Source: a virus. Taken from it: 39,779 nt of DNA. The notes under the pieces were generated by a model. The model did not search any database. It had not been told where the DNA came from and saw only the letters and a program-made list of their open reading frames with translations. Shown here in pieces: positions 11,403-14,467 of this stretch. Position 1 is the first letter of the stretch, and the number at the start of each line of letters is the position of its first letter. A program made the translations under genes and the position numbers. The stretch covers positions 1 through 39,779 of IMG/VR virus record IMGVR_UViG_3300049717_000030, one strand, 5' to 3'.

Positions 11403-11807
11403 ATGACTAGTGGAATTTCTTTTAAACCCAAGCTGGAAGATATCACAGAAGTTTTGACGCACAACAATGGAAATATTAGCGCAACAGCAAAACACTATAA
11501 AGTATGTCGAGAAGCCATTTACAGGCATATTTATAAATTTCCATCTTTAAAACAATTATTGGAAGATTTGCGAACCGTTAAAGATGAAAACTTATTAGAT
11601 TCTGCTGAAAGTGTGATTGCGTATTGTTTAAATCTGCGGGAAAAGAATACAAAACTATCTTTAGATGCCGCGCGATATGTTCTCGATAACAAGGGCAAGA
11701 AACGCGATTGGGGACAGTCAAAAGAAGATAGCGATATCCGAGGACTTGTGCAAGATAAGATAAGTGACGAAATATCAGTTCTTTACGATCAACAGAAAAA
11801 GGTATGA
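11403..11807 (+). CDS. probable terminase small subunit, helix-turn-helix (134 aa)
   Basis: A 134-residue protein with a helix-turn-helix NISATAKHYKVCREAIYRHI (residues 24-43), followed by a long helix (LLEDLRTVKDENLLDSAESV). That pattern occurs in DNA-recognition subunits of terminases, which select packaging sites. It is upstream of the large subunit, but the methyltransferase locus intervenes, so the assignment is less certain than adjacency would make it. A transcription regulator is an alternative. The ribosome site is weak. Confidence 0.6.
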   Translation: MTSGISFKPKLEDITEVLTHNNGNISATAKHYKVCREAIYRHIYKFPSLKQLLEDLRTVKDENLLDSAESVIAYCLNLREKNTKLSLDAARYVLDNKGKKRDWGQSKEDSDIRGLVQDKISDEISVLYDQQKKV

Positions 11808-11810
11808 GGC

Positions 11811-12518
11811 ATGTTAAATGGCTTGGACATTTTTACAGGCATCGGAGGGATTAGCTTGGCTCTCAAAGACTGGGTGCGCCCTCTCGCATATTGCGAACTG
11901 GACTCCTATTGTCAAGCAGTCTTGCTCTCACGAATGGCCGATGGTTCTTTAGATGAAGCGCCAATCTGGAATGATGTCACAAGTCTTGACAAGGCTTGTC
12001 TAGATATGATATTATCTCTCAAAAAGGAGAGTGATAGTATGTCCGGTAAACTTAAAAAGTTAACTGAAGAACAGGCAATTCAAGCAATTAAAAGTTACGA
12101 TGAAGGAATGTCCCTTGCCGACCTAGCCCATATTTATGGAGTTACTAGGCAAGGAATGTGGGATTTAATCCGAAGAAGAACAAATTTAAGATCAAATAAG
12201 CGTTATGGAAAAGATAATCACTTTTACAGGGGCGGAGCCAGAGCCGACGAAAGAGCAGGAAAGATACTCGATAATGCTCTCCGTTATGGAAAATTGCTTA
12301 ATCCTGAAAAATGTTCTTGCTGTGGAAGTGAAGAACGATTCAGAGATGGAAGAACCGCAATCCAAGGACATCACGACGACTATAACAAGCCCCTCGATGT
12401 GCGATGGCTTTGCCAAAAATGCCACCATGAATGGCACAAACACAATGAACCAATCAGATTTACAGGAGAGCCGGAACTCACCGAGGATGTCGATATCATC
12501 TTCGGCGGGTTCCCTTGA
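11811..12518 (+). CDS. C5 cytosine methyltransferase N-terminus with in-frame HTH-HNH insertion (235 aa)
   Basis: Residues 4-18 ([15 protein letters not shown]) are methyltransferase motif I, which binds S-adenosylmethionine, and [15 protein letters not shown] is motif II. After IWNDVTSLD the sequence leaves the methyltransferase family: residues 77-220 are a separate HTH-HNH nuclease. The methyltransferase returns at [10 protein letters not shown], motif IV up to the proline, and then meets TGA at 12516. The catalytic Cys-Gln follows six bases later in the same frame. The frame is open across the insertion, so a fusion may be translated, but without the catalytic Cys it should be inactive. 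The second half is at 12519-13157. Confidence 0.75.
11986..12015 (+). promoter_or_regulatory. sigma70-type promoter of the inserted HNH gene
   Basis: TTGACA (11986-11991) matches the consensus -35 exactly and TATTAT (12010-12015) is five of six for the -10, with an 18-base spacer. It sits at the junction where methyltransferase similarity ends, and is followed by AAAGGAG and the ATG at 12039. It therefore looks as if it arrived with the HNH gene. Confidence 0.6.
12039..12518 (+). CDS. HTH-HNH homing-type endonuclease with own start (159 aa)
   Basis: A free-standing HNH nuclease read in the same frame as the methyltransferase but with its own promoter (11986-12015), AAAGGAGA ribosome site and ATG. 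Residues about 8-45 form a helix-turn-helix ([20 protein letters not shown]), [13 protein letters not shown] follows, and the nuclease core has CSCCG, the [19 protein letters not shown] region with the catalytic HH, and [12 protein letters not shown]. Two Cys pairs bind structural zinc. This is a common phage HNH family that spreads by cutting uninterrupted alleles. The natural end of the nuclease is probably near HNEPIRF; the last residues and stop come from the host gene. No intron or intein features are seen around it. Confidence 0.75.
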
Positions 12519-13143
12519 ACATGCCAGGATATTAGCATTGCAGGACTTGGAAAAGGCTTGGCAGGAGAGCGAAGTGGATTGTTTTTCGAGATCGTGCGCT
12601 TGGCCCAAAAAATCAAGCCCAAGTTCATATTCATTGAAAATGTTCCGGCCATTACTTCCAGAGGAGGACTCACAGTCGCCATCCAAATTGCCGAAATGGG
12701 GTATGATTGTAGATGGTGTGTTATATCCGCTGCAAGCGTTGGAGCTTTACATCGTCGCGATAGATGGTTCCTATTGGCTTACTCCAACCACAATGGATCA
12801 TCTGCCCATCAGAACTGGGGAAGCATTAGAGAGAAGCCAATATCGGGGAAAATCAACAAGCAAGAGAAAGACGGCTGGCAGACTGAACGAACAGCTAGCT
12901 TATCTTCACATGTGGCCAACACCAAGAGCCAGCGATCACAAAAGAGGCGACTCCCCTTGCGAAAGAAAGAGAAACTCACCAACCCTATCAGCAACGTTGA
13001 ATATGGAACTTGGGACGAAGAACCAGAAAGTAAATTTGAACTGGCTGGAATGGCTAATGGGTTACAAGATCGGACACACAGAATTAAAGCCCTGGGCAAT
13101 GCAGTGGTTCCAGCTCAAGCCCGAGAAGCGTTTATGTTGTTAA
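12205..13143 (+). CDS. overlapping +1-frame ORF across the methyltransferase gene (up to 312 aa)
   Basis: Read one frame ahead of the methyltransferase, this stays open for 939 bases. The part before about 12487 merely shadows the HNH domain, so a functional product would more plausibly begin near ATG 12487 ([10 protein letters not shown]). From there it carries segments I recall from many phage sequences overlapping C5 methyltransferases: ARILALQ opposite the catalytic loop, [45 protein letters not shown] and [20 protein letters not shown], the last overlapping motif X. The 6-nt insertion that stops the methyltransferase frame only adds Glu-His here. No ribosome site is obvious. Coding status is uncertain, family recall is from memory. 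Confidence 0.4.
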
Positions 13144-13157
13144 TGGGGTTGAAATAA
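12558..13157 (+). pseudogene. C5 cytosine methyltransferase C-terminal part, separated by a stop codon (199 aa)
   Basis: The continuation of the 11811 gene in the same frame. CQDISIAG directly after the TGA ACA insertion (12516-12521) completes motif IV but is upstream of any start codon; the first possible start is TTG 12558. Downstream motifs are intact: IFIENVPAI (motif VI), [14 protein letters not shown] (motif VIII) and [18 protein letters not shown] (motif X). No further stop interrupts 600 bases, so the break looks recent or an error. Without the catalytic Cys a separately translated fragment cannot methylate unless the stop is read through. Its stop overlaps the terminase start (TAATG at 13155-13159). 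Confidence 0.7.
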
Positions 13158-14467
13158 TGGCTGCTATCATTCTATCAAAGAAACAAGTCCAAGCACATGA
13201 AGAATCAAATGCTCGCATAAACATCTTTGAAGGTAGTGTCCGCGCTGGTAAATCTTACATCGTTTTACGACGATTTCTTAAAGAAATAAGAAATGGCCCT
13301 GAAGGGGTCTATGTTATAGTAGGTAAGAGCGAAAGAACAGTCATGCATAACGTCATCCAACCCCTTAACGGCCCTGACTTTATGAATGGAACCATCAAAT
13401 ACAATAGGGGTTTGGGTGAGTTTACAATCTTTGATAAAAAAGTCTATGTGGTAGGTGCTAATGACGAACGGGCCGAAGGAAAAATTAGGGGATCGACATT
13501 TGCGGGTGCGCTCGTTGACGAAGCAAGTATCATCCCTGAATCGTTCTTTAAGATGCTTTTATCGCGTCTATCCGTTGACAACGCAAAAGTATTCGTTACG
13601 ACTAACCCTGACAGTCCCTTGCATTGGCTTAAAACAGATTTCATTGATCGCCGAAGTGAACTTGATATCTCGGTTTTTAGATTCGTACTTGACGACAACC
13701 CATCTCTGGGACAAGTCTACAAAGATAACCTTAAGAAAGAGTATAAAGGACTATGGTATAAAAGATTTATCTTGGGCGATTGGGTATTGGCTGAGGGTTC
13801 GATTTACGACTTCTTCGATACCGCGTTACACGTTGTCCAAGCGCCGAAGACGTATGCTAAGCAGTTCTTTGTCGGTATCGACTACGGTACTACAAACCCT
13901 TTCGCTGCCGTACTCGTGGGATTTAACGACGATGCCCATCCTGCCATCTGGGTAGAGAAAGAGTATTATTGGGATTCGAAGGCAATGGGTTTTCAAAAGA
14001 CCGATTCCGAATATGCCCGAGATCTCGAACGTGAGTTTGGGGGCTATCCCGTCACTCTTTATTATCTCGATCCATCCGCAGCATCGTTCGAAGTAGAGCT
14101 AAAACGCAATAAGAAGCCTGTGAAGCAAGCAATTAACGATGTCCTTGACGGCATTAGGTTTGTGGGTTCTATGATCGCTCAGGGCGATCTAGTGATATGC
14201 AAGAAGTGTGTAAATCTTATTAAAGAGATGGAATCATATGTTTGGGACTCTAAAAGCGTCAAACTTGGCGAAGATAAACCATTAAAGCAGCACGACCATT
14301 CAGTAGATGCAATGCGATATGTGCTTTATTCGCATTTTGGGAAGCGTAGCACGCTTAAAGAGTACAATGCGCATGAATCATACGCCAACAGCCAGCAGCG
14401 CAAATGGGCGCAAAATCCAATGGAATATCAGGGCTACACTAACTCGTTTGGATGGCAGCGCATCTAA
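13157..14467 (+). CDS. terL: terminase large subunit (436 aa)
   Basis: The packaging motor: an N-terminal ATPase pumps DNA into the prohead and a C-terminal RNase H-fold nuclease cuts concatemers. Walker A is GSVRAGKS (residues 26-33), Walker B with catalytic Glu is GALVDEAS (117-124), and the coupling motif is TTNPDSPLHW (148-157). The nuclease carboxylates lie in GIDYGTTNP (D242), YYLDPSA (D305) and HDHSVDAMRY (D384). Length is normal for the family. The start overlaps the methyltransferase stop by TAATG and a terminase small-subunit candidate lies upstream at 11403. Its last 29 bases overlap a convergent small gene. The circular contig suits headful packaging, though this is not proof. Confidence 0.93.
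   Translation: MAAIILSKKQVQAHEESNARINIFEGSVRAGKSYIVLRRFLKEIRNGPEGVYVIVGKSERTVMHNVIQPLNGPDFMNGTIKYNRGLGEFTIFDKKVYVVGANDERAEGKIRGSTFAGALVDEASIIPESFFKMLLSRLSVDNAKVFVTTNPDSPLHWLKTDFIDRRSELDISVFRFVLDDNPSLGQVYKDNLKKEYKGLWYKRFILGDWVLAEGSIYDFFDTALHVVQAPKTYAKQFFVGIDYGTTNPFAAVLVGFNDDAHPAIWVEKEYYWDSKAMGFQKTDSEYARDLEREFGGYPVTLYYLDPSAASFEVELKRNKKPVKQAINDVLDGIRFVGSMIAQGDLVICKKCVNLIKEMESYVWDSKSVKLGEDKPLKQHDHSVDAMRYVLYSHFGKRSTLKEYNAHESYANSQQRKWAQNPMEYQGYTNSFGWQRI

Follow-up and report, generated by a model that had tools for sequence, protein, structure and literature searches.

The window, meaning the whole stretch of 39,779 nucleotides analysed here (IMG/VR record IMGVR_UViG_3300049717_000030), carries a phage-type cytosine-5 methyltransferase gene that is interrupted by an HNH nuclease gene and by an in-frame stop codon, and that is overlapped in its +1 frame by a second gene. 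We refer to the product of the methyltransferase frame as alpha and to that of the +1 frame as beta. The features of the locus, with the evidence for each in brackets, are as follows.

11811..12038, plus strand: alpha, N-terminal part, from ATG 11811 and motif I (DIFTGIGG) to motif III (PHROG 363/116; weak Pfam DNA_methylase)
12039..12518, plus strand: HNH homing-type endonuclease, with AAGGAG at 12024-12029, ATG 12039 and stop TGA 12516-12518 (PHROG 2340)
12473..12513, plus strand: RNA hairpin of 16 bp, arms 12473-12479/12507-12513 and 12481-12489/12497-12505 (folding z, covariation, covariance model)
12513..12515, plus strand: putative take-off codon CCT, the Pro of GGFP (sequence; placement relative to the hairpin fixed in 37/37 alleles)
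12516..12518, plus strand: in-frame stop TGA before the catalytic CQ (sequence; recurrent in 37 loci)
12519..12521, plus strand: would-be landing codon ACA (sequence; CCN in 34/37 alleles)
12522..13157, plus strand: alpha, C-terminal part, with the catalytic CQ and motifs VI, VIII and X (ALGNAVVP, 13089-13112) (Pfam DNA_methylase, 9.6e-24; PHROG 363, 9.7e-44)
12538..13143, plus strand: beta, small subunit, 201 codons from a predicted TTG start (shuffle test; PHROG 1008)
12910..12951 and 13036..13086, plus strand: beta segments, WPTP and motif-IX-like, respectively (sequence)

By eye only, the flanks at 11403-11807 and 13157-14467 have the look of packaging genes, the latter resembling a terminase large subunit.

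The +1 frame encodes a predicted second subunit

The initial annotation had proposed that the methyltransferase frame, with motifs VI, VIII and X, and the +1 frame are both open from about 12500 to 13143 and form a conserved overprinted pair. Past TGA 12516-12518 the methyltransferase frame is open at 12519-13157, where the Pfam and PHROG matches agree with the motifs named, and the +1 frame is open to 13143; the +1 segments that it named were located at 12910-12951 and 13036-13086. Openness of the +1 frame was assessed by permuting synonymous codons of the methyltransferase frame, which leaves its protein and codon usage unchanged, and counting stops in the other frames. The window alone has no stop in the +1 frame against a mean of 5.96 after shuffling (p<0.0005). 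Across 22 homologous loci, 1 stop was observed against 103.9 expected, and in a second, distant family of 78 loci, 18 against 306, whereas the +2 control frame was near expectation in both sets (246 observed against 252, and 1128 against 1218). Since the +1 frame is depleted of stops with the alpha protein held constant and the +2 frame is not, it is selection on the +1 product that keeps this frame open. The alternative, that the +1 frame is open by chance or through nucleotide-level conservation of the methyltransferase, could draw on the good conservation of the overlapped protein, but alpha-preserving shuffles yield about 100 times more stops and the +2 frame behaves as expected; the probability of this explanation is practically nil, and we regard it as refuted.

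Homologues of the +1 product are not confined to identical phages. Twenty-eight IMG/VR loci were retrieved using the methyltransferase frame alone (31-54% identity, except two near-copies), and all of them encode the +1 product in the same relative frame; overlapping alpha and beta genes were seen in about 100 phage loci altogether. In the record of Paenibacillus phage Tadhana, both nested frames are annotated as methyltransferase. Between the window and one near-identical copy (L003/L084), alpha past the stop is identical and beta differs by one residue (Leu/Pro). The +1 open reading frame starts at 12205, within the inserted HNH gene, and its homologous part begins only at about 12523. TTG 12538 is preceded by AGGA and is conserved in 28 of 36 relatives, and is the likeliest start of beta on these sequence features.

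Alpha aligns with M.HhaI over motifs I-VIII and contains motif X (GNAVVP), and inspection found no LTP..GFP motif (IX) in its frame. Beta carries WPTP repeats and the segment L[NC]PxWVEWLMGYPxGW, which resembles motif IX (LTPRE..RLQGFPD.W) and was assigned by inspection. The +1 product matches PHROG 1008, 'DNA methyltransferase', at 6.4e-11; profile positions 20-281 align to the +1 product and 294-315 to motif X of alpha, as if one family read both parts in a single frame. The AF2 model of beta was too poor for a test of motif IX (pLDDT 63, pTM 0.24), and a PDB profile search with beta gave no true match. By its motif content, the locus is a predicted two-polypeptide cytosine-5 methyltransferase of the M.EcoHK31I type, with motifs I-VIII and X in alpha and the target recognition (TRD) side and motif IX in beta. 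The proposal of an overprinted pair is upheld as a real and conserved one, although the kind is not new, having been known since 1995 from M.EcoHK31I. The division between the chains varies among loci. The +1 frame of L072 and L075 holds motifs IX and X and is thus split like M.AquI rather than M.EcoHK31I, while L239 has motif IX in both frames and L210 has motif X shifted to the beta frame, as if the alpha/beta division had been redrawn by an indel.

A stop codon recurs at catalytic motif IV

The TGA of the window falls exactly between GGFP and CQDIS of motif IV, and the same TGA is found in two near-identical contigs. Other loci have a stop at the same site, in the form CCN-TGA-CCN-TGY-CAR, which amounts to six extra bases. 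A pattern scan for TGA with landing codon NCN returned about 17 true methyltransferase contigs among 27. In a control scan for P-NNN-PCQD that allowed any codon at the stop position, 15 methyltransferase contigs had a stop (12 TGA, 1 TAA, 2 TAG) and no true methyltransferase had a sense codon. More loci came from a general PCQ scan and a TAR scan, and no methyltransferase in these scans had the stop but lacked the second proline codon. After deduplication, the CCN-stop-CCN set, with the window, comprised 37 distinct methyltransferase loci (TGA in 22, TAA in 10, TAG in 5). The take-off codon is directly followed by the stop in all 37 alleles, the window included. The landing codon is Pro in 34 of 37, a count in which most scans required CC and only the TGA/NCN scan is informative on the match; it is ACA in the window and L080 and TCA in L070, all three of which bear an HNH gene.

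The 37 loci span many methyltransferase families, and a good part of them show less than 45% identity to any available normal relative. Stop alleles are rare, with 1 in 79 in the best-sampled family, so some of them may be young and dead; two, L067 and L109, are visibly decayed. L109 lies in a cellular betaproteobacterial MAG and is the one clear case from the genome scan. Short DNA queries did not find the element in cultured phages, and the methylases examined in Omegavirus mycobacteriophages are normal at the motif IV site, with HNH elsewhere.

Several simple accounts of the stop can be set aside. A random pseudogene or an assembly error is ruled out by its presence in two near-identical contigs and its recurrence, and selenocysteine insertion or other TGA recoding by the occurrence of TAA and TAG. 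A group I intron or other known RNA has no Rfam match, and in the HNH-free alleles only six bases need to be removed. A frameshift at the stop would fuse the N-terminal part of alpha to beta, and most take-off codons cannot re-pair in the +1 frame. Phage Aeh1 NrdA is a split protein; neither a split alpha in that manner nor re-initiation past the stop is compatible with the lack of an in-frame start codon before the catalytic Cys.

A hairpin abuts the putative take-off codon

In the window (locus L079), the 16-bp hairpin has a folding z of -4.5, and its 3' arm encodes IIFGGF and ends at the first base of the take-off codon. When 48 bases ending with the first proline codon were folded, mean z was -4.6 in the 37 stop alleles and -0.1 in 111 normal alleles (Mann-Whitney p=7e-17), and z was below -1.5 in 89% of the former and 5% of the latter; control windows further down the same genes gave 0.0. 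One stop allele, L258 (CCA-TAA-CCA), has a z of -8.7. Median helix length is 16 bp; in 37/37 alleles the helix ends, on its 3' side, at -1, 0 or +1 of the first base of the proline codon. Codon choice before the stop is skewed because of the hairpin, with TTC in 36/37 and GGG or GGC in 35/37 stop alleles compared with 78/111 and 53/111 normal alleles, respectively. Covariation is seen at the third base of the last Gly codon, where the pair is C-G in 21 alleles, G-C in 14 and U-A in 1, and in two ungapped sets double changes occur at 5 of 14 and 7 of 15 helix pairs. The hairpin is also present in stop alleles without HNH nearby. It is weak or absent in L227 and L252 in the windows tried, and folding windows from -15 or -6 onward revealed no structure downstream of the stop beyond chance. 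A covariance model of the element scores the window at 79.9 bits and gave good scores only at already known sites; no Rfam family matches the hairpin, and when the remaining genes of the fetched loci were searched for comparable hairpin-stop elements, only noise was returned.

An inverted repeat adjoining the likely nuclease target, in alleles linked to HNH genes, could in principle act at the DNA level, as a cruciform or a recombination site for the nuclease, instead of as an mRNA signal. The helix is rich in G-U pairs (at one position, U-G in 7 of 9 sequences), which suit RNA of the coding strand and nothing else; in addition, the spacing of the helix to codon and stop is fixed. We therefore consider a DNA-level feature highly improbable. 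Together, the stop, the hairpin and the HNH gene constitute a recurrent, structured element beyond reasonable doubt, and the break in one frame to which the initial annotation referred is this element, recurring in 37 loci, nearly all with the hairpin, and no simple lesion.

Stop alleles are linked to HNH nuclease genes

The HNH gene of the window is intact and inserted in frame between motifs III and IV of alpha; its product matches the PHROG 2340 endonuclease at 1.4e-24 and aligns from its ATG with free-standing phage HNH proteins such as Sf6 gp26. Among alleles with enough sequence, an HNH model detected a nuclease gene inside the allele or immediately before it in 15 of the 34 stop alleles and in none of the 105 normal alleles (p=4e-11). 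It lies in frame between motifs III and IV in ten distinct loci and just upstream in L072, L202, L237 and L260. A further arrangement is that of L089 (7400-8110), a GC-rich methylase whose HNH gene is concealed in the +1 frame of an in-frame insertion, in the manner of the ShiLan domain discussed below, and which also has the stop element. In Mycobacterium phage Schatzie (L344, 2270-3793), a methylase annotated 'unable to determine intron boundaries' has an HNH in another frame of an open insertion after motif VIII, which is ShiLan-like at a different site.

Stop alleles are scattered in a tree of the C-terminal part, whereas a short N-terminal tree, built in part perhaps from cassette sequence, groups the window family's five alleles with HNH into a single clade. 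This conflict between trees, together with the HNH linkage, is the signature of a putative homing cassette with its right border at stop/CCN.

Alpha shows little decay past the stop

Contig ends aside, alpha remains open well into or through its C-terminal part past the stop in all alleles except the decayed L067 and L109. Substitutions were compared between 20 stop branches and their normal sisters: changes altering only alpha numbered 222 and 251, respectively, and changes silent in alpha and altering beta 372 and 345. Seven of eight stop-stop pairs had ratios of 0.56-0.91, compared with 0.79 (sd 0.22) for normal pairs; the exception, the vertically related L210 and L239, had a ratio of 1.90, with more alpha-changing substitutions than normal pairs. 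In two pairs with homology extending beyond the gene, L210/L239 and L250/L260, the stop has been retained and both halves kept open through 18-20% divergence. These sequence comparisons, whose power is limited by the undated gain of the stop in each allele, give little sign of decay, and selection on alpha is not clearly relaxed beyond the stop. The expectation that this locus would separate selection on the two frames, only one of them being broken, was consequently not borne out.

A candidate in-frame stop-hop

On this evidence, the hairpin-stop element is likely to be a programmed stop-hop, and our main reading, to which we assign a probability of roughly 0.68, is a two-frame methyltransferase with a mobile HNH cassette and a programmed in-frame stop-hop at motif IV. 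A 6-base insertion at motif IV sets the stop between a pair of proline codons, with the 16-bp mRNA hairpin just ahead of them. In the proposed mechanism, ribosomes halting at TGA would release an alpha-N/HNH (or HNH) product, and some would leave the first proline codon, driven by refolding of the hairpin behind them; with the helix reaching up to the take-off codon, the bulk of its pairs could form only as the mRNA advances. The hop would skip six bases and resume at TGC, giving an unaltered GGFPCQ and a full alpha chain. By breaking up the target of the nuclease, the insertion would in addition render the allele immune. Translation past the stop, the hop product and target immunity are what we infer from the sequence. 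The broader proposition, that phage cytosine methyltransferase genes recurrently bear natural in-frame stop-hops at the catalytic motif, spread with an HNH nuclease whose target the element disrupts, which would make them the first natural stop-hops and the second such cassette after T4 gene 60, is one that we also favour, with some reserve.

Certain observations count against a stop-hop. In HNH-bearing alleles, alpha would need to function with some 150 additional residues; three of these alleles have landing codons ACA or TCA; no structure follows the stop; L210/L239 show excess change in alpha; and L227 and L252 are poor in hairpin. With ACA as landing codon, hopping in the window may be inefficient or lost, so that the window copy may be weak or dead. 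These non-matching landing codons and the two decayed alleles are equally what would be seen if the stop were the end of a homing nuclease gene, or a scar left after its loss, with alpha dead and beta surviving for a while. Linkage to HNH (15/34 against 0/105), the rarity of stop alleles and their separate, recurrent acquisition also suit such an origin. This explanation is nevertheless rather unlikely. It leaves unexplained the absence of a sense codon at the stop position, an alpha without clear relaxation past the stop, and the two syntenic pairs that have diverged by 18-20% with both halves still open. What weighs most is that alleles lacking a nearby HNH retain the hairpin, with its covariation, and the proline repeat; a dead gene would not keep the hairpin.

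Intact coding sequence after an in-frame stop might also be expected of programmed read-through, with an amino acid inserted at the stop. Read-through would put two extra residues inside the catalytic PCQ loop; moreover, all three stops are used, including TAA in 10/37, and the hairpin is upstream, abutting the P-site codon, rather than downstream. We accordingly find read-through improbable and retain the stop-hop as the preferred reading.

The recurrent broken-frame element of stop, hairpin and HNH at motif IV of alpha is, to our knowledge, new. Almost everything known about programmed bypassing in bacteria and phages has come from a single case, T4 gene 60. The 37 candidate sites share an anatomy and vary naturally, which allows the signals to be taken apart by comparison and examined with a simple reporter. 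If the stop-hop is real, a homing nuclease combined with translational bypass would be a recurrent way for selfish genes to inhabit enzymes, and phage methyltransferases that look 'broken' may in many cases be intact. With their overlap, the alpha and beta genes also offer a ready system for the study of dual coding.

Comparison with known systems

M.EaeI is another two-polypeptide cytosine-5 methyltransferase of the M.EcoHK31I sort, and Lee et al. reportedly described in 1995 that the subunit genes of M.EcoHK31I overlap in different frames. In M.EcoHK31I, the larger subunit has motifs I-VIII and X and a predicted TRD, and the smaller subunit has motif IX (PMC3404938). The loci described here are alike in the distribution of motifs between a large and a small chain and in the overlap of their genes in different frames. 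They differ in being in phages and widely diverged, and alpha of the window is interrupted by the HNH gene and the motif IV stop.

Arsenault, Gosselin and Gogarten (2025, PMC11855218) described the ShiLan domain, an HNH homing element inserted in a phage DNA methylase; after the insertion, copies that carry it have Thr/Ser at the position where uninvaded ones have Pro (PMC11855218). The window shares with it an HNH homing insertion in a methylase and Thr in place of Pro, by its ACA codon, which suggests, by analogy, a shared putative target. Unlike the window, ShiLan has its HNH out of frame and the methylase frame open, and no stop, hairpin or hop is described for it (PMC11855218). The HNH of the window shares the frame of alpha and terminates at TGA; it is L089 that hides its HNH in the +1 frame.

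Synthetic stop-hops, in which a stop is flanked by matched codons and nine bases yield one residue, are attributed to Weiss 1987 as cited in PMC5009743, and according to this 2016 review no natural occurrences of in-frame stop hopping were known (PMC5009743). The present element is alike in its stop flanked by proline codons (34/37 alleles) and in that nine bases would give one residue, and differs in being natural and in having a dedicated hairpin.

In T4 gene 60, whose bypass is credited to Huang 1988 as cited in PMC5009743 and was described with mobA by Bonocora 2011, ribosomes take off from GGA while UAG occupies the A site and land on a second, matching GGA, and a 5' stem-loop that completes its folding behind the ribosome pushes it forward (PMC5009743, PMC11194080, PMC3014915). 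The HNH gene mobA adjoins gene 60, and the 50-base gap may guard against homing cleavage (PMC5009743, PMC11194080, PMC3014915). Our element resembles gene 60 in having a putative take-off codon followed by a stop, a 5' stem-loop and an interrupted enzyme gene adjoining an HNH homing nuclease. The landing codon is Pro, like the take-off codon, in 34/37 alleles, mostly from scans that required CC, and is ACA in the window. It differs in that the gap is in frame and of 6 bases as opposed to 50 bases out of frame, that gene 60 has an A-site stem-loop where no stem-loop is present at the stop here, and that the host gene is a methyltransferase at many loci rather than a topoisomerase at one.
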